Source of the DNA: [Zimmermannella] faecalis ATCC 13722
GTDB taxonomy: Bacteria > Actinomycetota > Actinomycetes > Actinomycetales > Microbacteriaceae
Length of the DNA: 64,000 nt
Reading direction: 5' to 3'
NCBI RefSeq assembly: GCF_000381765.1
Contig: NZ_KB907078.1
Span: 62,001 to 126,000, forward strand
Under the pieces are notes generated by a model. That model was not told the origin of the DNA. It ran no database searches and was given only the letters and a program-made list of their open reading frames with translations. Both the position numbers and the translations under genes were made by a program. This document shows, in pieces, positions 4,094 to 17,260 of the stretch. Every line of letters begins with the position of its first letter. Within the stretch, counting starts at the first letter, position 1.

Positions 4094-4813
4094 ATGGCTC
4101 GCAACCCCGCAGTGAACCGCAATCCGCGCGCGAATCGCGCCGTGCATCCCGACCGCGCCTGGGTGCGCCTCCTGCGCCTCGCCCTCGGCGTCGCCGCGTT
4201 CGCCGGTGTCGGGTGGAACTTCTACCGGGCCGCGAACGGCATGGTCGAGTCGACCCTCATCGAGTCGATCTCGCAGTTCACGAACCAGGCGAACCTCGTG
4301 TTTGGCCTCGTGCTCGTGGTCGGCGCGCTGCGCTCGCGAGACTCGCTGCCCGCGTGGTGGGACGACGTGCGGGGCGCGGCCGCGTTCTACATGGTCATGA
4401 CGGGGCTCATCTACGCGATCCTCGTTGCCGAGCCCGGGGAACTCGCGCGCTGGGACCTCGAGTGGTCGAACATTCTGCTGCACCGCATCACGCCGACGCT
4501 CGCGCTCGTGGGTTGGCTAGTCGTGACCATGACCCGACGCGGAACCTGGGGCCGTCCGCTCGCGTGGCTCGCGTATCCGGTGCTCTACCTCACCTACACG
4601 TGGGTGCGCGGCAGCATCGTCGGCTGGTACCCGTACGGGTTCCTCGACCCGACCGGTCCGGGCGGCTGGGGCGACGTGCTCGCGACGACGGCGCAGGTGT
4701 TCGTCGCGTTCCTCGTGATCGCGGTGGTGCTGCACGTGCTCGGGATGCTGCGGGCGAGCCTCGCGCACCGAGGTCGAGTCGGGTCGCGCAGCTCGGCCGA
4801 GCCGGTCGGCTGA
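4094..4813 (+). CDS. Pr6Pr-family integral membrane protein
   Basis: A 239-residue protein with about six hydrophobic helices after a basic N-terminus. The pattern of FYRAANG near the first helix and WYPYGFLDP near the fifth loop resembles the Pr6Pr/FAR-17a-like membrane proteins common in actinobacteria. No enzymatic function is established for these proteins. An upstream ATG-like frame exists, but ATG at 4094 removes a cysteine-free proline-rich extension of no evident function. There is no good Shine-Dalgarno sequence; AAGACT 7 nt upstream is a weak -10 and could indicate a leaderless start. It is preceded by the 19-bp symmetric array and a G-rich tract. Confidence 0.7.
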   Translation: MARNPAVNRNPRANRAVHPDRAWVRLLRLALGVAAFAGVGWNFYRAANGMVESTLIESISQFTNQANLVFGLVLVVGALRSRDSLPAWWDDVRGAAAFYMVMTGLIYAILVAEPGELARWDLEWSNILLHRITPTLALVGWLVVTMTRRGTWGRPLAWLAYPVLYLTYTWVRGSIVGWYPYGFLDPTGPGGWGDVLATTAQVFVAFLVIAVVLHVLGMLRASLAHRGRVGSRSSAEPVG

Positions 4814-4889
4814 CGCGCACACCCGCGGCCGTCGCCTGGGGTCGCCGCGCGCGGGGCCCGGATAGGCGGGTCGGGCCCCGGCCGCGCGG

Positions 4890-7124
4890 CTACTCCTCGA
4901 CGACGCAGGCGACGGTGCTGACGCCGTCGTCGCGGTGGCCGAGGCCGTGGGTGATGCCGTTGAATCCGGGGAACCGCTCGGCGAGATCGCCCTCGACTCG
5001 CAAGTAGTCGACGATTCGCTCGGTGACGCGCTCGCCGGGCACGAGCAGCGGGATTCCGGGTGGGTAGGGCGTGAGCAGCACGGCGGTGATGCGGCCCGCG
5101 AGCTTGTCGACCGGCACGTGTTCGATACGTCCCGCGGTCATAGCGGCCCACGCGTCGGCGGGCAGCATCGCGACCTCGGGGTCGCCGAGGTAGATGTCGG
5201 TCGTGAGGTTCGCGAAGTCGCCCTCGCGGTACGCCTCGTGGAGCTGGTCGCAGAGGTCGCGCAGCCCGAACACCGCGTAGCGCGGGAACTCGGCGGCGAA
5301 CTCGGGCATCACGTCGCGCACCTCGGCGTTGCGGTCGTAGGCGCGCTTGAAGCGGTGGAGTTCGGCGATGAGCGTGTTCCAGCGGCCCTTCGTCACGCCG
5401 ATCGTGAAGAGCACGAACAGCGAGTAGAGGCCGGTCTTCTCGACGACGACGCCGTGCTCGGCGAGGTACTTCGCGAGCACGAGCCCGGGGATGCCGCGGT
5501 CGCCGAACACGCCGTCGGTGCTGAGGCCGGGCGTCGTGAGCGTGACCTTGATCGGGTCGAGCATCGTGAAGCCGTCGTCGATGTCGTCGAAGCCGTGCCA
5601 GGTCTGTTCGCTCGAGAGCTCCCACTCCTCGCGCGCCGCGATGCCCTCGCGGGCGGGCGTGTCGGGTCCCCACACGTCGAACCACCAGTCGTCGTCGGCG
5701 CGTTCCTCGCCGATGCGAATGATCGCGCGGCGGAACTCCATCGCCTCGGTGATCGCCTCTTCGACGAGCGCGTGCCCGCCGACGCCGCGCATCATCTCGG
5801 CCGACACGTCGCAGCTCGCGATGATCGCGTACTGCGGGCTCGTCGAGGTGTGCATGAGGTAGGCCTCGTTGAAGATGTTCGGGTCGAGCCGGTGCTCTTC
5901 GGCGTTCTGCACGAGAATCTGCGACGCCTGCGAGAGCCCGGCGAGCAGCTTGTGGGTCGACTGCGTCGCGTAGACGAGCGACGACTTCGTGCGCTCGGCG
6001 CGCTCGTCGACCGCGTGCATCCCCCGGTAGAGCTGGTGGAACCGCGCGTGCGGCAGCCACGCCTCATCGAAGTGGAGCACGTCGACGGCGCCGTCGAGCG
6101 TGCGCTTGATCTCTTCGGCGTTGTAGACGATGCCGTCGTACGTGCTCTGCGTGAGGGTGAGGATGCGCGGGGTCGCGTCGGGGTCGTCGATGAACGGATG
6201 CGCGGCGATCTTCGCGCGGATCGACTCGGGGCTGAACTGGTCGCGCGAGATCGGCCCGATGATGCCGGCGCGGTTGCGCGTCGGCTTGAGGTAGATGGGG
6301 ATCGCGCCGGTGAGCATGATCGCGTGGAGGATCGACTTGTGGCAGTTGCGGTCGACCACGACGATGTCGCCGGGGCCGACGGCCGAGTTCCAGACGATCT
6401 TGTTCGAGGTGGAGGTGCCGTTCGTCACGAAGTAGAGGTGGTCGGCGCCGAAGGTTTCAGCGGCGCGGGCCTCCGACTCGGCGACGGGGCCAGTGTGGTC
6501 GAGCAGCTGCCCGAGCTCTTCGACGGCGTTGCAGACGTCGGCGCGCAGCAGGTTCTCGCCGAAGAACTGGTGGAACATCGTTCCGGCGGGCGACTTGAGG
6601 AACGCCGTGCCGCCCGAGTGCCCCGGGCAGTGCCACGAGTAGGCACCGTCGTTCGCGTAGTCCATGAGCGCGCGGAAGAACGGCGGCGCGAGCCGCTCGA
6701 CGTACCGGCTCGCCTCGCGCACGATCGTGCGGGCGACGAACTCCGGGGTGTCTTCGTAGGCGTTGATGACGCCCTCGATCTCGCGGAGCACGACGGTCGG
6801 CAGGCGCCGGGCCGTGAGTTGCTCGCCGTAAAGGTAGACGGGAATCTCGGCGTTCTGCTCGCGCACGGTCGCGACGAACCGCACGAGCTCGTCGGCGCGG
6901 TCGCTGCCCGCGTCGAGCGCGGCCGGGTCGACGTGATAGAGAATCGCCGACTTGTCGTTGAGCAGCCGGGCGTGCGAGGCGGCGTCGAGCCCGGCCGAGA
7001 GCGACTCGACGCGCACCCCCTGGGCCTCGAGCTGCGTGGCGAGCCCGTCGAGGGTGGTCTCGGGCTGCGCGGCGTCGACGCGCGAGTCGGCGATGACGGC
7101 GATGGCGAAGTTGTTCGTCTGCAC
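4890..7124 (-). CDS. Orn/Lys/Arg-type PLP decarboxylase
   Basis: A 744-residue fold-type I PLP enzyme of the prokaryotic ornithine/lysine/arginine decarboxylase family. An N-terminal wing domain (about 1-125) precedes the PLP core with SWHCPGHSGG, TNGTSTSNK and FDEAW motifs, and the Schiff-base lysine is Lys392 in STHKLLAG. The C-terminal domain completes the usual length of 710-760. It converts a basic amino acid to a diamine or agmatine; which one cannot be decided. The start is GTG at 7124 with AAAGG 7 nt upstream. It is the last gene of the operon that begins at 14559, 79 nt after the aminotransferase, and may have its own ribosome loading. Confidence 0.88.
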   Translation of the reverse strand: MQTNNFAIAVIADSRVDAAQPETTLDGLATQLEAQGVRVESLSAGLDAASHARLLNDKSAILYHVDPAALDAGSDRADELVRFVATVREQNAEIPVYLYGEQLTARRLPTVVLREIEGVINAYEDTPEFVARTIVREASRYVERLAPPFFRALMDYANDGAYSWHCPGHSGGTAFLKSPAGTMFHQFFGENLLRADVCNAVEELGQLLDHTGPVAESEARAAETFGADHLYFVTNGTSTSNKIVWNSAVGPGDIVVVDRNCHKSILHAIMLTGAIPIYLKPTRNRAGIIGPISRDQFSPESIRAKIAAHPFIDDPDATPRILTLTQSTYDGIVYNAEEIKRTLDGAVDVLHFDEAWLPHARFHQLYRGMHAVDERAERTKSSLVYATQSTHKLLAGLSQASQILVQNAEEHRLDPNIFNEAYLMHTSTSPQYAIIASCDVSAEMMRGVGGHALVEEAITEAMEFRRAIIRIGEERADDDWWFDVWGPDTPAREGIAAREEWELSSEQTWHGFDDIDDGFTMLDPIKVTLTTPGLSTDGVFGDRGIPGLVLAKYLAEHGVVVEKTGLYSLFVLFTIGVTKGRWNTLIAELHRFKRAYDRNAEVRDVMPEFAAEFPRYAVFGLRDLCDQLHEAYREGDFANLTTDIYLGDPEVAMLPADAWAAMTAGRIEHVPVDKLAGRITAVLLTPYPPGIPLLVPGERVTERIVDYLRVEGDLAERFPGFNGITHGLGHRDDGVSTVACVVEE

Positions 7125-7203
7125 GTGCGGACCTTTCTATAAGCGGTGAGTTGGGGTGCCGGCCAGGTTGCCGGCGAAGCACAGGCGGCGAGGGTGGCGC
7201 GGG

Positions 7204-8550
7204 CTACCAGCCGCCGTACGACGCGATCGCGTCGAGCGGCACCCGGCCCGAGGCGACGTCGTCGAGGGCGGTGAGGATGCACTCGAGGCCGGCGCGCAGC
7301 TCGTCCTCGGCGATCGTGAGGGGCGGGGTGACTTCGAGCACGTTCTCGCGCACAACGAACAGCGCGCAGCCGAGCTCCCAGGCGCGGTAGACCGTGAGCG
7401 CCGCGACCTCGGCCGGGGTGAACGGCTGCCCCGCGGCCTCGCCGAGCTCGACGCCGAGCAGCAGGCCTGCGCCGCGCACCTCGGTGATCGCGGCGGACCC
7501 GGGGCGGTTGCTCGCGCGGTAGCCGGCGAGCGAGTCGCGGGCGACTGCGCCGAGCCGGGTCGCGGCGGCGAGCAGCTCGCCGTCGTCGAGCAGCCCGAGC
7601 ACGGCGGATGCGGCGGCCGCGGCGATCGGTGCGCCGGCGGTCGTGAGCAGGGCCGAGGCGCGGGGCTCGCTCATCGCCTCGACCGGCCCGACGACGGCCG
7701 ACACCGGGAGCCCTCCCCCGAGCGCCTTGCCGAGCGTGACGAGGTCGGGCGCCACGCCGGAGCGCTCGAACGCGAAGCGCTCGCCCGTGCGGCCGAGCCC
7801 GGCCTTCACCTCGTCGACGATGAGCAGGGCGCCGAACTCGTCGCAGAGCTCGCGCAGGGCGGGCAGGAATCCGGCGGGCGGTACGAGCACGCCGCCGTCG
7901 CACTGCAGCGCCTCGACGATGACGGCCGCGACGTCGCGGCCCGCGAGCAGCTCGCGCAGGCGGCCGCGCGCGGAGTCGAGCTGCGCATGCGTCACCGGGT
8001 AGTCGACGAGCCGCGCCTGGGGCGCGTCGTCGCCCGGCTCGACCGCGATGCCCGACACCTCGAGCGAGGGGCCGTGCCCGCCGTGGTAGCTGCCGCTGAA
8101 CGCGACGATGCCCTGGCGCCCGGTGGCGTGGCGGGCGGCGGCGATCGCGACGGTGTTCGCGTCGGTGCCGCCGAGGCCGAGGTAGGCGCGGCGGCACGCG
8201 GTGTCGGCCTCGCGAATCGGCACGAGCTCGACGAGTCGCTCGGCGAGCCGGGTCGTCGCCTCGACGGCGCTTGAGAGCACGGAGGCGCCGCCGCCCGCGC
8301 GTGCGGCGTCGGCGATCGCGTCGGCGATGGTCGGGTTACCGTGGCCGAAGGCCGAGGCGGTCCAGCTCGCCGAGAAGTCGAGCACGCGACGCCCCGACGA
8401 GGTACGCAGCCAGGCGCCTTCGCCGCCCGCGACGGCGAGCGGGAAGAAGCGGAGGTGTTCGATGCCGGCGACGGCGGCCTCGTCGCGCGCGTACGCGGCG
8501 AGTTCTTCGCGCCGCTCGTCGGCCGTGAGTTCGCGGGGAACGCGGGTCAT
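7204..8550 (-). CDS. Class III (omega) aminotransferase
   Basis: A 448-residue PLP-dependent class III aminotransferase. Visible motifs include SGSYHGGHG, VDEVKAGLGRTG with the PLP-ring Asp, and the Schiff-base Lys275 in LGKALGGG. Enzymes of this class remove an omega-amino group from diamines, omega-amino acids or related compounds, giving an aldehyde. The longer frame upstream is rejected because ATG at 8550 has AGGAG seven bases before it and overlaps the RpiR stop (ATGA). Its place after a permease, glutamyl-ligase and two amidohydrolases suggests that it deaminates an amine or amino acid delivered by that route. Confidence 0.88.
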   Translation of the reverse strand: MTRVPRELTADERREELAAYARDEAAVAGIEHLRFFPLAVAGGEGAWLRTSSGRRVLDFSASWTASAFGHGNPTIADAIADAARAGGGASVLSSAVEATTRLAERLVELVPIREADTACRRAYLGLGGTDANTVAIAAARHATGRQGIVAFSGSYHGGHGPSLEVSGIAVEPGDDAPQARLVDYPVTHAQLDSARGRLRELLAGRDVAAVIVEALQCDGGVLVPPAGFLPALRELCDEFGALLIVDEVKAGLGRTGERFAFERSGVAPDLVTLGKALGGGLPVSAVVGPVEAMSEPRASALLTTAGAPIAAAAASAVLGLLDDGELLAAATRLGAVARDSLAGYRASNRPGSAAITEVRGAGLLLGVELGEAAGQPFTPAEVAALTVYRAWELGCALFVVRENVLEVTPPLTIAEDELRAGLECILTALDDVASGRVPLDAIASYGGW

Positions 8551-9452
8551 AGCGGCTCCTTCGTGATGGTCGATTCGATTGCGGCGCGCATCGGGTCGAT
8601 GCGGCGAAGGCGGTCGAGCCCGTCGCTGCCGAGGCGCGCGACCGCGGCCTCGCACAGGGCCGAGACGAGCGCCATTGCGGGCACGAGGGTGTCGGATGGT
8701 CCGCTCGCCTCGACGCGGCAGCTCAGCACGACGTCGGCGAAGTTCGCGATGGGCGACAGCCAGCGGTCGGTGATGAGGGCGATGCGGGCGCCGTGCTCGC
8801 GGGCCTGGCGGGCGATGCGCTCGGTGGCGGGGGCGTAGCGGCGGAAGTCGAAGATGACCCACACGTCGGCGCGGTTCGCCGACTCGAGCAGGAGGTCGAT
8901 CTGCCGCATCGTGTTGCTCGGGCAGGTGCGCACGCCCGGCCGAAACATCGAGAGCTCGGTGACGAGGTGGTGCGCGAGCAGCCCCGAGAACACGCCGCCG
9001 TGGGCGACGATGCCGACGCGGGAGTCGGCGAGCCAGCCGACGAGCTGTTCGACCTCGCTCGCGCGCAGCGAGTCGAAGGTGCGGTTGATGCCGTCGATGT
9101 ACGACGCCTGCGATGCCCGGAGCTGCTCGAGCCCGTCGTCGGCGGGCGCCGGGTCGGGACGGCGCAGCGCGAGCGAGAGCGCGGAGTCTTCGCGCGCCTG
9201 CACCTCGTCGCGCAGCGAGTCTTGAAACTCGCGGTACGCCGCGAACCCGAGGGTCTGCACGAATCGCACGATCGTCGCGGCGCTCACGCCGGCGCGCTCG
9301 GCGAACCGGTGCACGCTCGTGAGCCCGGCGACCGGGTAGTCGCTGAGCAGCGTGCGGGCGACCCGGCGCTCGGCCGACGTGAGGTCGGCGAAGCGCCCGT
9401 TGATGCGCTCGGTGACGCTCGCCGCGTCATCGTGCGTCGCGGGGGTGGTCAC
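8547..9452 (-). CDS. RpiR-family transcriptional regulator (HTH plus SIS domain)
   Basis: A 301-residue regulator with an N-terminal HTH_6 domain (about 15-90, including HRFAERAGVSAATIVRFVQ) and a C-terminal SIS domain (about 130-270) that would bind a phosphosugar or other small ligand. The start is GTG at 9452, overlapping the previous stop as GTGA, and its own stop overlaps the aminotransferase start. It is thus translated from the middle of the catabolic operon and likely autoregulates it. A matching candidate operator, TTTCAC/GTGAAA half-sites, lies upstream of the first gene at 14629-14671. Confidence 0.86.
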   Translation of the reverse strand: MTTPATHDDAASVTERINGRFADLTSAERRVARTLLSDYPVAGLTSVHRFAERAGVSAATIVRFVQTLGFAAYREFQDSLRDEVQAREDSALSLALRRPDPAPADDGLEQLRASQASYIDGINRTFDSLRASEVEQLVGWLADSRVGIVAHGGVFSGLLAHHLVTELSMFRPGVRTCPSNTMRQIDLLLESANRADVWVIFDFRRYAPATERIARQAREHGARIALITDRWLSPIANFADVVLSCRVEASGPSDTLVPAMALVSALCEAAVARLGSDGLDRLRRIDPMRAAIESTITKEPL

Positions 9453-10651
9453 GGCGTCGCCCCGTCGAGTCGGCGCGCGGCCGCGAGATAGCCGGCGATG
9501 AAGGTCTTTGCGACGCGCTCGATGGCGTGTTCGTCGGGCAGGAACGTCGCGTCGTGGAGCGACACCCCGCCGCCGTCGACGCCGACGAAGGTCATGACGC
9601 TCGGCACGGCCGTGCCGAAGAACGAGAAGTCGTCGGCGCCGAGCGAGCGCATCGGCTCGGCGTGGTCGAGCCCGACGCGGTCGAGCAGGCCGTCGAGTTC
9701 GGCGACGAGCGCCTCGTCGTTCACGAGCTCGGGCTCGCCCTCGACGTGCTCGAGCGTGCCGGTGCAGCCGAACGCGCTCGCCTGGTGGGCGACAAAGTCG
9801 CGCAGCACGTCGGCGAGCCTGCGGGCCTCGTCGGACGACGCGGTGCGAATCGTCGCGAGAATCTCGCCGGATGCGGGGAGCACGTTCGCGGCGCCCGACC
9901 CGACGCGCACGGTGCCGACGCTGACGACGGCCGAGTGCATGGGGTCGACGGTGCGCCGCAGGGTCGCGGGGATGCCCGAGATGATCTGCGCGACGGCCCC
10001 GGCCACGTCGTCGCCGTGGTGCGGATACGCGCCGTGGCCGCCGCGGCCGGTGACGACGATGCGCAGCTCGCCTGCGGCGGCGTTCACGAAGCCGGCGCCG
10101 GTCGCGACCGCGCCGACGGGCACGCCCGGATGCACGTGCGCACCAAACATGTGCGCGATTTCGGCGCGCGCGAACGCGGGCTCCTCGACGATGTCGGCCG
10201 CGCCCGAGGGGTACGCCTCCTCGCGCGGCTGCAGCACCGGCACGAGCGCGTACGGCAGCGGGAGGTCCCGGGCCGCTCGCACGACCGCGGTGAGTGCGGC
10301 GAGGTGCACGTCGTGGCCGCACGCGTGCATGCAGCCATTCGTCGACGCCCACTCGACGCCCGTCGCCTCGGTGACCGGCAGCGCATCCAGCTCGCCGCGC
10401 ATCCCGATCGCCGGGCCCGAGTCGGGGCCGAGGCGGCCGATGCCGCCCGTGTCGGCGACCGGCTCGAACTCGAGATCCATCGCCGCGGCGACGCGCTCGG
10501 TGGTCTCGCGCTCGTCGCCGCTCGCGCGGGGCTCGCGGTGGAGCACCCGGCGCAGCTCGGCCGCGGCCGGCAGCTCGCGCTCGAGTGCGGCGAGCCAGTC
10601 GGTCAGCAGGGTCTGGGTGTCTGTTGGCAGAGCGTCGGTGGCAGAAGTCAT
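9449..10651 (-). CDS. M20-family (M20D) amidohydrolase
   Basis: A 400-residue zinc-dependent hydrolase of the M20D group, which includes hippurate hydrolase, IAA-amino acid hydrolases and N-acyl-amino acid amidohydrolases. Motifs are MRGELDALP, MHACGHDVH with metal-binding Cys and His, and REEAYPSG near the catalytic glutamate. It would hydrolyse an amide bond between an acyl or glutamyl group and an amino acid or amine. The ATG at 10651 overlaps the upstream stop by four bases. In this operon it is a natural second amide-cleaving enzyme, releasing a product formed or imported by its neighbours. The exact substrate is not predictable. Confidence 0.87.
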   Translation of the reverse strand: MTSATDALPTDTQTLLTDWLAALERELPAAAELRRVLHREPRASGDERETTERVAAAMDLEFEPVADTGGIGRLGPDSGPAIGMRGELDALPVTEATGVEWASTNGCMHACGHDVHLAALTAVVRAARDLPLPYALVPVLQPREEAYPSGAADIVEEPAFARAEIAHMFGAHVHPGVPVGAVATGAGFVNAAAGELRIVVTGRGGHGAYPHHGDDVAGAVAQIISGIPATLRRTVDPMHSAVVSVGTVRVGSGAANVLPASGEILATIRTASSDEARRLADVLRDFVAHQASAFGCTGTLEHVEGEPELVNDEALVAELDGLLDRVGLDHAEPMRSLGADDFSFFGTAVPSVMTFVGVDGGGVSLHDATFLPDEHAIERVAKTFIAGYLAAARRLDGATP

Positions 10652-11811
10652 GCTGCTCCGTTCTGTGCGAGCGGGTCGAATCCGTAGACGCGGGCCGCGT
10701 TCTCGTAGCCGATCATGCGGGCGACGCGCTGCTGCTCGGCGAGCGGCCAGCCGTCGAGCTCGGCGAACCGCGCGAGCGCCGCCGTGAGGCCCCGGCGGAA
10801 AAGCAGCGTGCCGAGATAGTAGAGCTCGGCCGCGCCGAACGCGTCGCTGCTGAACAGGATCTTGCCGAAGGGCGCGAGCTCGAGCGACTCGGCGATGACG
10901 GCCTCCGACCGCGAACCCGTGTAGTTGATCGCGAGCCCGATGTCGAAGTAGACGTGCGGGAACACGTCGGCGAGGTAGCCCGCCTCGCGGTGGAACGGGT
11001 AGCAGTGCAGCAGCGTGAACCGCGCCCCCGAGTCGACGCTCGCGCGCAGCAGCCGGGTGAGCAGCAGCGGGTTGCAGCGGTGCAGATCGACGTCGTCATC
11101 GCCGTAGCCGACGTGCACCTGAATGACGCAGGCGCGATCGATCGCGAGCCAGATGAGGTGACGAATCAGCGTCGGGTCGTCGAGCCGCAGCGGCCCCTCG
11201 GTCTCGAGGAGTCGCGCGGCGCTCGACTCGACCGCCGACCGGCCCGGCCGGGCGTCATCGAAGTCGAACCCGATGCGGTAGGCCGCGATTGTCTTGACCC
11301 CGACCGCGTGCTCGAGGCGCGCATCCAGCGTTCGCTCGATCTCGTCGACAAGCTGGGCTGCGGATGCGCCCGGCGCGTCGCGAACGCGCTCCGCGACCTG
11401 CTCGGCGAGGCGCTCGAGGCGCACGATTTCGCAGTGGCTCGCGTCGCCGAGCTCGGCCATGTCGGCGGGGCCGTTGATGCGGCCGGCGTCGTGGCCGGTC
11501 TCGATGCCGTACACCGCGATGTTCGCGGCGCGCAGGAGTCGCCGGTTCACCTCGTCGGCGCCGAGCTCGCGGCGCCGCGCGAGGTAGTCGTCGGGCGCCG
11601 CGAATGGCTCGAGCCCGAGGATCGGCGCGCAGTGCGCCCGCACCTGGAACCCGACCTGCGAGTCGAAGCGGGTCGTGCCGTCGGTCGCGGGCCGCGACGA
11701 CTCCGAGATGAGCCCCTCGAATTCCGCACGATCGACGTCGTTCGTCAGCACGCCGTGGCAGTGATGATCGAACAGCGGCAGGTTCGTGAGGTCGAGTGCG
11801 TCAGTAGACAT
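10648..11811 (-). CDS. FluG-type amidohydrolase (amidohydrolase_2 family)
   Basis: A 387-residue TIM-barrel amidohydrolase. The N-terminal metal motif D15-x-H17-x-H19 lies in FDHHCHG, with further conserved IQVHVGYGD, LLHCYPF and SSDAFG blocks later. This resembles the N-terminal half of the FluG/nodulin-glutamine-synthetase fusion proteins, and here it lies directly after a separate glutamine-synthetase-like gene. The two halves of that fusion are thus present as adjacent genes. ATG at 11811 is chosen over an upstream frame; it overlaps the ligase gene by 11 bases. The proposed role is hydrolysis of a gamma-glutamyl-amine or related intermediate. Confidence 0.82.
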   Translation of the reverse strand: MSTDALDLTNLPLFDHHCHGVLTNDVDRAEFEGLISESSRPATDGTTRFDSQVGFQVRAHCAPILGLEPFAAPDDYLARRRELGADEVNRRLLRAANIAVYGIETGHDAGRINGPADMAELGDASHCEIVRLERLAEQVAERVRDAPGASAAQLVDEIERTLDARLEHAVGVKTIAAYRIGFDFDDARPGRSAVESSAARLLETEGPLRLDDPTLIRHLIWLAIDRACVIQVHVGYGDDDVDLHRCNPLLLTRLLRASVDSGARFTLLHCYPFHREAGYLADVFPHVYFDIGLAINYTGSRSEAVIAESLELAPFGKILFSSDAFGAAELYYLGTLLFRRGLTAALARFAELDGWPLAEQQRVARMIGYENAARVYGFDPLAQNGAA

Positions 11812-13126
11812 TCGTGTACGCCTCGCACTGTTCGGCCGGGGTCTTGTCACGCAGCGAGGCGATCTCGTCGCGCTTCACCGCGAGGAAGGTCGCGAGCCAG
11901 TTCGGCGCGAGCCAGCTCCGCACCGTCTCGTTCTCCTCGAGCGCGACGAGCGCCTCCTCGAGGCTGCCCGGGAGCTGCGCGAGGCCGGCGTGCTCGCCGT
12001 CGAGGTCGAGCTCGCCCACGACGATGTCGGCCGGCGCGAGGTCTTCGTCGATGCCGGCGAGGCCCGCGCGGATGATGAGCCCGAGCAGCAGCCACGGGTT
12101 CGCACCGATGTCGCTGCCGCGGAACTCGAAGTGGAGCTGCGGCTTCGGGTCGCGGCCGTCGAGCTCGTTCGTCGGGCAGATGCGCAGCAGCGCCTCGCGG
12201 TTCTGCAGGCCGAGGAACGCGCGGGCGGTCGACCAGTTGTGCGGCGCGAGGCGCACGTAGCTCGTCACGAGTGGCGCGAACAGCGCCGTCATCGCCGGCG
12301 CGTACTTCACGATGCCCGCGGCGAACTTCGCGGCGGTCTCGGAGAGCCGGCCCGGGCGGGTGTCGTCCCACACGACGGTCTCGCCGTCGAGGTCGTTGAG
12401 CCCGAAGTGCACGTGCACGCCGTTCCCACCGGCGCCGGGGCGCACGACCGGGGCGAAGCTCGCGTGGCGCCCGTTCGCGGCAAACAGGTCGGTGACAATG
12501 TCGCGAACGAGGATCGCGCGGTCGGCCGCCGCGAGCGCATCCGTCGGCTTCACCGTGATCTCGTACTGGTGCTCGGCGTACTCGGGCAGCCAGGTGTCGG
12601 GCTCGAGGCCGGCGCGCTCGAGCGTCGTGACGAGCTGCGAACCGATCGGCTCGATGTTGCGGAAGCCCCGCAGCGAGAACGGGTGCGGTTCGGTCGTCGC
12701 CGAGAGGTCGACGAACTCGTGCTCGAACGCGCTGCGGGTCGTGAACCCGTGCTCGCGGAGGTCGGCGATCGCGTTCTTCAGGAACGTGCGCGCGCACGAC
12801 TCCCACGGCGTGCCGTCGGTCTCGATGATGTCGGAGAACACGAGGTTGAGCGGCGTGCGGCCCGGCACCGTGTCGATGCGCACGCGCGAATCGAGGTCGG
12901 GCTTAAGCCGAAGGTCACCCGACGAGCCGTACGGAATGCCGTCGACGATGTGGCCGAGGGGGCCGATGCCGAGGTTCGCGGGCACCCAGCCGAGCGTCGT
13001 GCGCTCGTCGAAGTCGGCGAGCCGCTGCGCGCGGCCCTTCGTGCGCGCCGCGATGTCGGTGGTCGCAAGGAAGATGAGTTCGTCGAGGTCGTTCGCCTCG
13101 GCAGCTGCGGTGGTTGGGGTGGTCAT
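11801..13126 (-). CDS. Glutamine-synthetase-like gamma-glutamyl ligase
   Basis: A 441-residue protein of the glutamine synthetase fold. The FEHEF segment supplies the metal-binding Glu-x-Glu. GGNGVHVHFGLND matches the GNGMHCHMS loop, and YVRLAPHNW with NREALLRI matches the ATP and glutamate region, although the usual VPGYEAP segment is altered to APHNWSTA. Such altered forms (GlnA3/GlnA4, PuuA, NodGS-like) attach glutamate to amines rather than ammonia. GGAGG lies 7 nt before the ATG at 13126. It is two bases after the permease stop and is followed by the FluG-type hydrolase, supporting a gamma-glutamylation pathway rather than nitrogen assimilation. Confidence 0.85.
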   Translation of the reverse strand: MTTPTTAAAEANDLDELIFLATTDIAARTKGRAQRLADFDERTTLGWVPANLGIGPLGHIVDGIPYGSSGDLRLKPDLDSRVRIDTVPGRTPLNLVFSDIIETDGTPWESCARTFLKNAIADLREHGFTTRSAFEHEFVDLSATTEPHPFSLRGFRNIEPIGSQLVTTLERAGLEPDTWLPEYAEHQYEITVKPTDALAAADRAILVRDIVTDLFAANGRHASFAPVVRPGAGGNGVHVHFGLNDLDGETVVWDDTRPGRLSETAAKFAAGIVKYAPAMTALFAPLVTSYVRLAPHNWSTARAFLGLQNREALLRICPTNELDGRDPKPQLHFEFRGSDIGANPWLLLGLIIRAGLAGIDEDLAPADIVVGELDLDGEHAGLAQLPGSLEEALVALEENETVRSWLAPNWLATFLAVKRDEIASLRDKTPAEQCEAYTNVY

Positions 13127-13128
13127 GA

Positions 13129-14559
13129 CTAGTCCTCCACGGTGAGTCGAGCGCCGATTCGCTTCGCCAGCTGCGGCTGGCTCAGCACGATGATGAGGCC
13201 CACGATGCACCATGCACCGGCGAGCCAGGGGAAGTAGGTGTACGGCGGCTCCTGGCCGACGATCTGAATCACGTACACGTAGATAAGGAATGCGAGGGCG
13301 AGCAGCGGGAAGATGACCTCCCACTTCTTGATGCCGGAGTTTGGCGTGAACATGTGGCGAATCACGCCGACCGCGGTCATGCCGTAGGCCACGACCATGC
13401 AGAGCGTGCCCATCGTCGCGTACCAGTAGTAGGCGTCGACGCTCGTCGCGCCGAACACGCCGAGCACGAGCGCCATGACGGTCGTGAGCAGCACGGCGAC
13501 CGTCACCGACGCCGAGGGCACCTGGGTGCGCTCGTTGAGGCGGGCGAACGCCTTCGGGCCGAAGCCGTCGCGCGCGAGGGCGAACAGGAGTCGCGAGGCG
13601 GCCGTGCTCGAGCTGAGCAGCGCGCCGAACGCGACGAGGAACGCAATGATCGAGATGAGCACCGCGAACCACGGGCCGATGTACGTCGACGCGAGGGTCG
13701 TGAGGGTCGACGAGGCGTTCGCGAACGCGTCGATGCCGGCCTGGTCGGTGCCGAAACCGATCGTCTGCGCGAACATCATGAACACGTACACGAGACCGCC
13801 GATGATGACGGCGAGCAGCACGGCGCGGGGCACGTGGCGCTTCGGGTCGTCGGATTCCTCGCCGAGCGACGTGCCGGACTCGAAGCCCGCCCATGAGAGG
13901 AAGCCGAAGACCGCCGCCGTCATGATCGCCGTGATGGGGGCATCCCCCGGCGTGAGGGTTGAGAGGTCGATGCCGGTCGACACCGGGGCGTCGCCCGCCG
14001 CGATCTTCACGATGATGACGATGGCGAGGATGAGCATCGCACCGATGCCGACGAAGCCGATGCCGAGCAGGGTGCGGGCGACGATCGCCGACTCGCGCAG
14101 GTTGAGTGCGAGCGCCGCGACGCCGACGACCGCGGCCACGATCATCCACATGCCCGGGGCGAGCACGACGCCCATCTCGGCGAGCATCGCCTCGAAGAAC
14201 ACTGCGCACGCGCCGACGATGCAGGCCGCGAAGAAGATGTAGGTGCCGAGCAGCGCGAAGCCGCCGAAGAACCCGGCCTTCGGGCCGAGCGTCGTGCCGG
14301 CGAGCGCGTACACCGAGCCCGCGTGCGTGATCTTGCGCGTGAGGCGCACGAAGCCGTACGCGACGAACAGGGTGCCGACGAACGCGACGAGGAACGTAAA
14401 CGGCACCGACTTGCCGACGAGCCCGGCGACGCCGATGCCGTTGAGCGACATCGCCATGACCGGCCCCATGAAGCCGATGCCGATTGCCGTGATCTCGAAC
14501 GTGCCAAGCGGGCGCTTGGTGTGTGGGGTGGCGGTCTGCGCCGCCGAAGTTTCGCTCAT
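13129..14559 (-). CDS. APC-superfamily amino acid/amine permease
   Basis: A 476-residue membrane protein with about twelve to fourteen hydrophobic segments and the APC signature region near the first helix (FEITAIGIGFMGPVMAMSLNG). Such permeases import amino acids, polyamines or ethanolamine with protons. It is the first gene of the seven-gene minus-strand operon and likely brings in its substrate. GAGGG lies six bases before the ATG at 14559. A perfect 11-bp inverted repeat at 14629-14671 lies in its promoter region. Confidence 0.87.
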   Translation of the reverse strand: MSETSAAQTATPHTKRPLGTFEITAIGIGFMGPVMAMSLNGIGVAGLVGKSVPFTFLVAFVGTLFVAYGFVRLTRKITHAGSVYALAGTTLGPKAGFFGGFALLGTYIFFAACIVGACAVFFEAMLAEMGVVLAPGMWMIVAAVVGVAALALNLRESAIVARTLLGIGFVGIGAMLILAIVIIVKIAAGDAPVSTGIDLSTLTPGDAPITAIMTAAVFGFLSWAGFESGTSLGEESDDPKRHVPRAVLLAVIIGGLVYVFMMFAQTIGFGTDQAGIDAFANASSTLTTLASTYIGPWFAVLISIIAFLVAFGALLSSSTAASRLLFALARDGFGPKAFARLNERTQVPSASVTVAVLLTTVMALVLGVFGATSVDAYYWYATMGTLCMVVAYGMTAVGVIRHMFTPNSGIKKWEVIFPLLALAFLIYVYVIQIVGQEPPYTYFPWLAGAWCIVGLIIVLSQPQLAKRIGARLTVED

Positions 14560-14628
14560 TGTGTGCCCTCACTGCCACAGGTGACGCCGCGTTCGCTCCG
14601 ATGCGAACCGTCCCGGCGTTCATGAACC

Positions 14629-14671
14629 AAATGTTTCACTGCGCGTAAATCTAGCGCGTCGTGAAACATTT
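14629..14671 (-). promoter_or_regulatory. Candidate RpiR operator upstream of the permease operon
   Basis: AAATGTTTCAC at 14629-14639 is perfectly inverted as GTGAAACATTT at 14661-14671. Half-site centres are 32 bp apart, about three helical turns. It lies 70-112 bases upstream of the permease start. RpiR-family proteins often bind half-sites of this style, and the operon carries an RpiR gene. Binding is inferred. Confidence 0.6.
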
Positions 14672-14728
14672 GTCACACGGTTGGGGTGAGTTGGGCGTCG
14701 GTGAGTGGAGGGTCGCGGTGTCGCGAAC

Positions 14729-15824: not shown

Positions 15825-15830
15825 ACTCTA
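15825..15830 (-). promoter_or_regulatory. -10 box TAGAGT of a leaderless promoter
   Basis: TAGAGT on the minus strand ends 6 nt before the ATG at 15818 and shares bases with the stop codon of the upstream flavin oxidoreductase gene. There is no ribosome site between them. Confidence 0.5.
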
Positions 15831-16916
15831 ACCGGCGGCGAGCAGCTCGCGCACCCGCGGAATCACCTCTTCGCCGTAGCGCCGCAGCGACTGCATCGCG
15901 AGCTCGTGCGGCAGCTCGCCAGCCTGGTACTTGAGGTCGAAGCGCGTCGCGCCGAGGCTGCGCAGGCCGCGCGCGATCTTCTGCGCGACCGTCTCGGGGC
16001 TGCCGACGTGGAGCGCGCCGTCGCCGCGGATCCCTGCCTCGAACTGCTCGCGCGTCGCGGGCGGCCAGCCGCGCTCGGCGCCGATCCTGGAGGTGTTCTG
16101 TTGCCAGTACTCGTAGAAGGCGTCCTTCGCCTCGGCATCGGTGGCGCCGATGAAACCGGGCGAATGGTAGCCGATGCGCGACGATTCGTGCTCGAACTTC
16201 GCCTGCGCCCGGCGGTAGAGGTCGGCGAAGGGCGCGAACCGCGACACCTCGCCGCCGATGATCGCGAGCATGAGCGGGAAGTCGTAGTGCGCCGCGCGAA
16301 TCACCGACTCGGGGCTGCCGCCGACCGCGACCGACGTCGCGAGGCGGCCGGGCGTGCCGTCGGCGTTCGGCTCGATGGGCGGATACACGACGGTGTCGGT
16401 CAGCGGGGCACGGAACTTGCCGCGCCAGGTGACGGGGCCGCCCTGCGCGAGCATCGACCAGAGGTTCGCCTTCTCTTCGAAGAGCTCCTCGTAGTCGTGC
16501 ATCTCGAAGCCAAACAGCGGGAACGACTCGGTGAACGAGCCGCGGCCGATCATGATCTCGGCGCGCCCATTCGAGACCGCGTCGAGCGTCGACCAGCGCT
16601 CGAACAGTCGCACTGGGTCGTCGGAGCTCAGCACCGTCACGGCCGAGGCGAGGCGGATGTGCTCGGTGCGCGACGCGATCGCCGCGAGCACGAGCTCGGG
16701 CGACGAGACGGCGAAGTCGTCACGGTGGTGCTCGCCGATACCGATGACGTCGATGCCGAGTTCGTCGGCGAGCGCGCCCTGCTCGACGATCTCGCGGATC
16801 GTGTGCGCGTGCGTGTTTGTCGTGCCGTCGAGGTTGCTGCTCACGTCGCCGAACGTGTTAATGCCGAACTCGACCGCGTCGGCGGTGGGCGTGGGCACGG
16901 TGGTGGGGTCGCTCAT
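15828..16916 (-). CDS. LLM-class flavin-dependent oxidoreductase
   Basis: A 362-residue luciferase-like monooxygenase family protein. The barrel motifs IGIGEHHRDDF near residues 58-70, GRAEIMIGRGSF near 125-135 and a C-terminal helix ending in PRVRELL match the single-component LLM proteins that use FMNH2 or F420. The substrate cannot be predicted. The ATG at 16916 is preferred because GGAAGAGG precedes it, over an ATG 30 bases upstream. The downstream neighbour follows after 9 bases but seems to have its own leaderless promoter. Confidence 0.85.
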   Translation of the reverse strand: MSDPTTVPTPTADAVEFGINTFGDVSSNLDGTTNTHAHTIREIVEQGALADELGIDVIGIGEHHRDDFAVSSPELVLAAIASRTEHIRLASAVTVLSSDDPVRLFERWSTLDAVSNGRAEIMIGRGSFTESFPLFGFEMHDYEELFEEKANLWSMLAQGGPVTWRGKFRAPLTDTVVYPPIEPNADGTPGRLATSVAVGGSPESVIRAAHYDFPLMLAIIGGEVSRFAPFADLYRRAQAKFEHESSRIGYHSPGFIGATDAEAKDAFYEYWQQNTSRIGAERGWPPATREQFEAGIRGDGALHVGSPETVAQKIARGLRSLGATRFDLKYQAGELPHELAMQSLRRYGEEVIPRVRELLAAG

Positions 16917-17260
16917 GTCGCCTCTTCCGATTGCGTGATTATTCATTCAATCGGACAGAACGCCGGGCAACCTGAGTGCATTCCCGCACAGGGCCGGCCA
17001 CGTCTGCGGCCGATAACTCATCGTTGCTGCACCCTCCGACACGAAAGCCCGCGCTCTCGCGCGGGCTTTCCGAATCGGCGCTCAGAAGTCTATTTCGCCT
17101 TCCGCTACCAACCTCAGGGTATCCCGAGACAGCGTGCGAGGGCAGCTGAACCGGGGCACTTCTCGACAAGCACACGACGGCGGGCGACCGCGAGCATTCT
17201 CGGGGCCGCCCGCCGCGGCGCGATTCGCGTATCCGGCCGTTCGCGTAGCCGGCCAAGCGG
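16917..17260. other. Gene-free stretch with a terminator-like hairpin
   Basis: This 344-base gap holds the promoter of the flavin oxidoreductase and the 3' end of the GMC gene transcription unit. Apart from the hairpin at 17043-17070, nothing further is recognisable. Confidence 0.5.
17043..17070. terminator. Hairpin with complementary GAAAGCCCGCG arms
   Basis: GAAAGCCCGCG and CGCGGGCTTTC form a strong stem around a short loop. The stem ends in A and T runs on both strands, so it could terminate transcription from either side; it most likely serves the GMC gene on the minus strand. Confidence 0.6.

Follow-up and report, generated by a model that had tools for sequence, protein, structure and literature searches.

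Lysine production has long made use of alpha-amino-epsilon-caprolactam (ACL) racemase (EC 5.1.1.15), as the accessible part of PMC7431475 states with reference to a source of 1977, and our literature search found no natural pathway for the enzyme. The reaction by which FluG of Aspergillus nidulans takes part in fungal sporulation was left open in 2019, according to the available sections of PMC6478659; the same sections place GS-like (glutamine synthetase-like) and amidohydrolase genes close together in bacterial gene clusters, for which they cite Iyer et al. 2009. Here we describe a seven-gene operon with relatives of both proteins from [Zimmermannella] faecalis ATCC 13722, located in a stretch of 64,000 nucleotides (contig NZ_KB907078.1, positions 62,001 to 126,000) that is referred to below as the window. 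It encodes an APC-family permease, a GS-like ligase, a FluG-type amidohydrolase, an M20D amidohydrolase, an RpiR/MurR-family regulator, a class III enzyme dependent on pyridoxal 5'-phosphate (PLP) and an Orn/Lys/Arg (OKR) decarboxylase (Table 1).

The class III protein has the fold, PLP lysine and key residues of the ACL racemases (Achromobacter obae, 2zuk; 5m46, which we take to be the enzyme of Rhizobium freirei) and of 6gio; it differs from them in belonging to a sister clade (39% identity to the A. obae enzyme), and its pathway context is the new part. Both halves of the FluG/NodGS fusion, with the metal ligands and the Trp-type ligase, are likewise present, although in the window they are split into two genes and set among a racemase, an M20D hydrolase, a regulator and a transporter. 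With the gamma-glutamyl-polyamine pathways (Puu/Pau) and Streptomyces GlnA3/GlnA4, the operon has a GS-like gamma-glutamyl ligase in common. The Puu pathway comprises the oxidase PuuB, the dehydrogenase PuuC and the class I glutamine amidotransferase (GATase) PuuD. By contrast, none of the seven proteins matched an oxidase, an aldehyde dehydrogenase or a class I GATase in NCBIfam or Pfam, and a predicted racemase and two metal amidohydrolases are encoded instead; the mismatch with the Puu pathway seen in the original prediction is therefore upheld. The decarboxylase has its best Protein Data Bank (PDB) match in 6q6i (752 bits), presumably the lysine decarboxylase LdcA of Pseudomonas aeruginosa, but its operon is actinobacterial and of a different type, with no recognised decarboxylase antiporter adjoining the gene. 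Finally, the caprolactam pathway of Pseudomonas jessenii, as outlined in the accessible part of PMC6061476, combines an ATP-dependent 5-oxoprolinase-like caprolactamase with a true transaminase, unlike the window operon. Taking the evidence below together, we tentatively read the operon as catabolic. Its substrates would be alpha-amino lactams or the amides of alpha-amino acids, and deracemisation and gamma-glutamyl protection would take the place of an amine transamination.

The class III enzyme as a predicted racemase

The class III protein, originally predicted to be an aminotransferase, is very probably a racemase of the ACL (lysine lactam) type, judging from its relatives and active-site residues. 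Its closest PDB chains are ACL racemases and the amino acid amide racemase (272–256 bits), with the next group at 191 bits. The residues W49, Y137, D210 and K241 and the PLP lysine 267 of ACL racemase, in the numbering and roles that we assume for that enzyme, correspond to W63, Y155, D218, K249 and K275, so that the window protein has the set expected of EC 5.1.1.15. Across 49 loci with a match of at least 200 bits, Lys249 (in the motif DEVK), Asp218 and the PLP Lys275 were invariant, while Asp130 was found in 48, Tyr155 in 47 (Thr in L143 and L144) and Trp63 in 42. Transaminase paralogues encoded in four of the racemase loci (L114, L137, L139, L141) have DEVQ or DEVI, the lysine being replaced; the transaminase-type Q or I is absent from the DEV-x motif of the window protein. 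A plain transaminase reading of 8550-7204 was ruled out by these residues, and the transamination step of the original prediction was not borne out.

A tree of 61 rows united the actinobacterial racemases and one Pantoea row in a clade of 27 rows (support 100/99). With a joint support of 85/84, this clade is sister to the one that includes the authentic enzyme from A. obae. A divergent racemase row, L146, was placed with transaminases, outside the racemase clades. The annotation 'aspartate aminotransferase family' carried in this clade (e.g. L110–L113) is probably misleading. In the parts of PMC7431475 and PMC11391342 that were available, the substrates given for ACL racemase are alpha-amino lactams and amino acid amides. 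Thus the ACL-racemase residues make an alpha-amino lactam or amide a likelier substrate than a simple amine.

These residues bear directly on the view with which the analysis began, in which the operon catabolises gamma-glutamyl amines (polyamines) with a class III amine transaminase and a decarboxylase that makes the amine. A decarboxylase of this type would yield a diamine, and the best NCBIfam match of the ligase is GGputSyn (216 bits, where the cut-off is 650). We nevertheless consider polyamine catabolism improbable: the DEVK, TDAN and QxDGG residues of racemases replace those of transaminases, the operon has neither an aldehyde dehydrogenase nor an amine oxidase, and in most relatives the core comes without the decarboxylase.

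A more distant class III protein (28–30% identity, DEVK or DEIK) was seen in L034, L059 and L076, accompanied by ABC ATPases and a gene of the GMC oxidoreductase family; at two of these loci, L059 and L076, it adjoins a GS-FluG-M20D group.

Conservation of the operon and of its racemase linkage

All seven genes lie on the minus strand; four of the junctions are overlaps (one of 11 bases, three of 4), and the other two are gaps, one of 2 bases and one of 79, as first described. Pfam backs every family: AA_permease_2, Gln-synt_N_2 with Gln-synt_C, Amidohydro_2, Peptidase_M20 with M20_dimer, and HTH_6 with SIS from the permease to the regulator, followed by Aminotran_3 for the PLP gene and the wing, major and C-terminal OKR domains for the decarboxylase. 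A second in-frame start, a GTG at 11850, is possible for the FluG-type gene. The genome (2.85 Mb, 17 contigs) appears to lie near Gulosibacter, judging from its FluG-type and racemase genes.

Table 1. Features of the operon and its upstream region (window coordinates)
Feature	Coordinates	Strand	Remarks
APC-family amino acid permease, importer	13129..14559	-	PF13520, 123 bits; usually first gene of the cluster
GS-like gamma-glutamyl ligase, predicted	11801..13126	-	2-base gap after permease; flap Glu of true GS replaced by Trp298
FluG/NodGS-type TIM-barrel amidohydrolase, predicted to open a lactam or amide	10648..11811	-	11-base overlap with ligase, counted from ATG
M20D amidohydrolase, predicted gamma-glutamyl-amino acid hydrolase	9449..10651	-	4-base overlap with FluG-type gene
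RpiR/MurR-family regulator, HTH_6 + SIS	8547..9452	-	4-base overlap with M20D gene
Class III PLP-fold racemase, ACL type, predicted	7204..8550	-	4-base overlap with RpiR gene; Trp63, Tyr155, Asp218, Lys249, PLP-Lys275
Orn/Lys/Arg decarboxylase, N-terminal wing	4890..7124	-	79-base gap after racemase gene; nearest 6q6i (LdcA-like)
12-bp inverted repeat CAAATGTTTCAC (14628-14639) / GTGAAACATTTG (14661-14672), candidate RpiR operator	14628..14672	.	Upstream of permease

To place the operon among its relatives, 105 loci were tabulated, drawn mainly via the FluG-type gene, in stretches of up to ~21 kb with a match counted anywhere in the stretch. A scan of named genomes baited with the FluG-type gene gave 65 loci, and the plasmid loci were baited with the racemase; in each of these sets the bait is necessarily present. 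The permease, ligase, FluG-type and M20D genes occurred together in 28 of the 105 loci, accompanied by RpiR in 27 and by the PLP gene in 20 of the 28, a grouping far above chance. This recurrence marks a conserved module and not an accident of this genome; it spans Microbacteriaceae, Micrococcaceae, Corynebacterium, Dermabacteraceae, Propionibacteriaceae and Ornithinimicrobiaceae. The operon is thus confirmed as real and conserved. A literature search that covered only a minority of subscription papers brought up no account of such a combination of genes, and an earlier genomic prediction is possible.

Counts free of bait were taken from 249 genomes of the family and 289 alphaproteobacterial genomes, in which the first few candidates per genome were scored. 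The FluG-type gene was present in 22 of the 249 family genomes and the racemase in at least 9 (up to six candidates per genome scored). In all nine, one contig carried both the racemase and the FluG-type gene, within 2.3 kb of each other in eight and 19 kb apart in G211, a co-occurrence with a hypergeometric probability of 6e-11 by genome and 9e-5 by genus, both of which ignore kinship. The racemase was found in at least nine of the alphaproteobacterial genomes (up to five candidates per genome scored). In six of these nine (L137, L139, L141, L142, L145, L146) it sits with an N-formylglutamate amidohydrolase (FGase) and either a FluG-type gene or a gene for an isochorismatase-type cysteine hydrolase (ISO), with a GS-family gene in all except L141. 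The three genomes without that linkage were G249 (L138, L140) and those of L143, on a contig of 13.9 kb, and L144, where the contig ends 6.4 kb away.

Similar roles are combined on plasmids. On an Ensifer plasmid, a gene that shares 77% identity with the ACL racemase of A. obae (2zuk) ends the series RpiR, ISO, GS family, FGase and racemase, which adjoins a branched-chain-type ABC transporter. Six of 82 plasmid records with a racemase match were examined, and the other five (Sinorhizobium twice, Rhizobium, Maritalea and Pantoea) had the same set, the Pantoea importer being an APC permease. The six predicted roles (importer, ligase, two amide hydrolases, racemase and RpiR) are therefore kept, with the two hydrolases swapped for unrelated families. 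Racemase homologues are also carried by Klebsiella plasmids (45 records). In the Pantoea plasmid cluster (L115), which has all six roles, the racemase groups with that of Planosporangium, suggesting transfer between phyla.

The neighbours of racemases elsewhere bear on whether the substrate is open or cyclic. Open-chain alpha-amino acid amides would require an amide racemase and a FluG-type or ISO amidase, with the decarboxylase incidental. The amide racemase 6gio is nearly as close to the window protein as ACL racemase is (256 versus 272 bits), and ISO is similar to amidases that act on biuret, ureidoacrylate and carbamoylsarcosine. A lactam is favoured over an open amide, however, because racemases elsewhere adjoin homologues of cyclic-amide hydrolases: PxpA-like LamB/YcsF proteins in three related alphaproteobacteria (L151 and L152, confirmed by Pfam; L140, by sequence resemblance) and, in the close relative G100 (L155), an allantoinase-PuuE-like protein (276 bits, cut-off 425) beside a second racemase of the same clade, with an asparaginase nearby. 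The linked decarboxylase, too, favours a basic amino acid as product, and we regard open-chain amides as unlikely. The second racemase region of G100 (8699-10015, 10020-11060 and 4767-5774), which also has a cytosine/allantoin-type permease nearby, is possibly a second cyclic-amide cluster. In L138 and L148–L150 the racemase neighbours include housekeeping genes and were uninformative.

Ligase, FluG-type hydrolase and alternative candidate deglutamylases

The GS-like protein is likely a gamma-glutamyl ligase and not a glutamine synthetase, in agreement with the original prediction. Its best PDB match, 4hpp, scored 307 bits, against 127 bits for the next chain, named glutamine synthetase. At the position of the flap glutamate of true GS (E327, as we take it), a tryptophan was found in the window ligase and in 71 of 72 aligned homologues. 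The exception, L127, has phenylalanine; it is a further GS-like gene of the same genome (G000:C10:7726-8550). Loss of key acidic GS residues in gamma-glutamyl ligases and FluG is described in the available text of PMC6478659.

The split FluG module that had been proposed was also borne out: alongside the 4hpp-type ligase, as a separate gene overlapping it and not fused to it, lies a hydrolase for which a PDB sequence search with an E limit of 1 gave 2qpx alone. This structure served as the template for the N-terminal half of FluG, and its residues are listed as H, H, carbamylated K, Y, H, H and D (PMC6478659, accessible part). In our alignment H17, H19, K173, Y178, H233, H269 and D323 match that list, and they were invariant in 31 of 31 rows. 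A model of the hydrolase (predicted local distance difference test score, pLDDT, 94) gave a VIA Z of 44.3 to 2qpx; the next matches, at Z ~24, were uronate isomerases and an amidohydrolase of Planctomyces. Sequence and model confirm the family of this enzyme, not its reaction. The model also resembles phosphotriesterases (Z ~16), which would suit an alpha-amino lactone or thiolactone such as homoserine lactone or homocysteine thiolactone; the A. obae racemase exchanges the alpha-hydrogen of the latter, according to the available part of PMC11391342. Such substrates would leave the linked basic amino acid decarboxylase unexplained, and amide-hydrolase homologues dominate among the neighbours, so we regard them as very unlikely.

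The M20D protein scored 196 bits with TIGR01891, above the cut-off. Its metal-site Cys, His and Glu residues were checked and are conserved in 39 rows, two His being found in 38 with one gap; some stretches appear under two ids, and 35 rows remain without duplicates. M20D, FGase and a third candidate, an EgtC-like class II GATase, were sought by tblastn (E 1e-8, one or two queries each), a search that distant members can escape. The best NCBIfam model of the EgtC-like proteins is EgtC, at 55–77 bits in the four tested (cut-off 219). In the synthesis of ergothioneine, EgtC cleaves off a gamma-glutamyl group. Among the 76 of 105 loci with a GS-family gene and a FluG-type or ISO gene, 33 had only M20D, 15 only FGase, 8 only the EgtC-like gene, 20 none of the three and none had two. 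When the racemase was also present (34 of the 76), exactly one of the three was found in every case, and RpiR in 33 of the 34; these clusters include near-duplicates (L027/L046 and several rhizobial plasmids). At L114, an annotated Sinorhizobium fredii 'M20' fragment had no Pfam match. The mutual exclusion of three hydrolases points to deglutamylation as the step they share.

It also bears on a reading in which the FluG-type protein hydrolyses aminolactams directly, forming a deracemising pair with the racemase that releases L-lysine, on the model of the old two-enzyme lysine process, while the ligase and M20D belong to a separate amine detoxification. A racemase and an L-lysine-lactamase are a known laboratory pair in the accessible parts of PMC7431475 and PMC6061476; in the family the racemase and FluG-type genes are tightly linked, and at L141 they occur together with no GS gene in the stretch. 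The presence of one candidate deglutamylase in each of the 34 racemase-GS clusters argues against such a division of labour, as does the fusion of hydrolase to ligase in FluG (PMC6478659, available sections), which fits consecutive steps, and we hold direct hydrolysis to be rather improbable.

A candidate pathway and the possible role of the decarboxylase

In the reading that we tentatively favour, the permease would import a lactam or amide, the PLP racemase would interconvert its D and L forms, the ligase would attach a gamma-glutamyl group to the alpha-amine, the FluG-type binuclear-metal hydrolase would cleave the lactam or amide bond, and M20D would strip the gamma-glutamyl group from the resulting gamma-glutamyl-amino acid to give glutamate and the amino acid, with RpiR regulating expression. 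Where the decarboxylase is present, as in Gulosibacter and a few of its relatives, it would then convert the basic amino acid, presumably lysine, to its diamine. We infer the order of the four middle steps from two considerations. A PLP racemase needs a free alpha-amine and would therefore act ahead of glutamylation; ligase and deglutamylase would be futile alone, and since the FluG-type or ISO protein is the sole enzyme left, the amide would be opened between the two. The gamma-glutamyl route of the original prediction is retained in its ligase; the racemase residues speak against a transaminase step and make a simple amine the less likely substrate. It is possible, though far from assured, that gamma-glutamyl-protected opening of an alpha-amino lactam or amide by a FluG-type or ISO hydrolase, with the glutamyl group then removed by one of three unrelated enzymes, constitutes a previously undescribed route.

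The attached decarboxylase, although predicted as part of the operon, stands as a linked gene and not as a core member. Matches above 490 bits to the OKR family were found in 4 of 249 family genomes, G000, G100 and G020 of one genus and G136 of another, all others reaching at most ~182 bits; in all four, the gene shares a contig with the FluG-type gene, no more than 16 kb away. Among the 105 loci, only L027, L046, L060 and L109 have a close homologue (>300 bits). We therefore treat it as a linked accessory, which suggests a basic amino acid product. The PDB chains following 6q6i scored 547 and 542 bits, and LdcA is listed as decarboxylating lysine in the accessible part of PMC7806604. A lysine-type decarboxylase attached to the cluster in some relatives would point to lysine or ornithine lactam; these are the leading candidates for the natural substrate in this genus, although we consider the identification doubtful. 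Ornithine lactam (3-amino-2-piperidone) recurs in the literature, mostly in metabolomics to judge by the titles, and the substrate class is therefore not exotic.

Short Orn/Lys/Arg decarboxylase homologues near the cluster (Microbacterium, Microcella and L034) were dropped as evidence for a recurring decarboxylase, OKR matches being common (49 of 249 genomes); the available part of PMC8503589 considers actinobacterial short OKR forms probably unrelated to polyamines. A third, long OKR form, with frames of ~920–1215 amino acids and a two-piece model match, occurs in several family genomes (e.g. G051:C4 and G208:C10).

Several observations weigh against the lactam or amide reading. Eight of the 28 loci with permease, ligase, FluG-type and M20D genes have no racemase in the stretch, which makes the racemase optional, and 10 of 16 genomes of one sample have the FluG-type gene and no racemase of this clade (best match at most 152 bits). 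Conversely, 15 of the 49 racemase loci lack a GS-family gene together with a FluG-type or ISO gene in the stretch. In six alphaproteobacteria chosen by their FluG-type gene (G249–G253, G255), ten racemases had no other panel gene in the stretch; there the racemase and FluG-type gene are unlinked. The 20 loci with none of the three deglutamylases (Frankia, Streptomyces, Chloroflexi and others) include no racemase, and in them the GS-FluG pair stands without a linked deglutamylase. In the Frankia, Kribbella and Pseudofrankia pairs, no common pathway gene was found in the neighbourhood among the families tested. As for the proteins themselves, Trp63 is replaced by Ala in 7 of the 49 loci, all alphaproteobacterial, three of which (L141, L145, L146) are clustered with FluG-type genes, and the 39% identity and sister-clade position of the window racemase mean that its substrate may differ from that of the authentic A. 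obae enzyme. No lactamase was among the matches listed in fold searches with the FluG-type model, and dihydroorotases, which open a cyclic amide, were listed as weak matches. In the NCBIfam rows listed, the seven proteins score below curated cut-offs, with TIGR01891 as the sole exception, and the PDB label of 6q6i is arginine decarboxylase.

If the lactam or amide reading is true, it would give the industrial ACL racemase a physiological role, and a reaction type to the N-terminal half of FluG/NodGS, a protein of fungal conidiation and a plant nodulin. The operon would join ACL racemase and FluG in one testable scheme, in which the order of steps is named and interchangeable hydrolases are predicted.

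Upstream of the permease gene, the inverted repeat in Table 1 is a candidate RpiR operator. Its half-site, TGAAAC/GTTTCA, was the commonest hexamer with two GC positions in the 250 bases upstream of the permease gene, occurring at 13 of 28 loci against a mean of 2.5; the motif was picked from the window first, and the lower GC content of upstream DNA may add to the count. Near the racemase cluster, at 15828-16946 on the minus strand of the window, lies a frame that resembles a luciferase-type monooxygenase by the appearance of its sequence. Similar frames, judged in the same way, occur near racemases in L140 and L151, and a Pfam-confirmed example is found in L150 (13872-15113).

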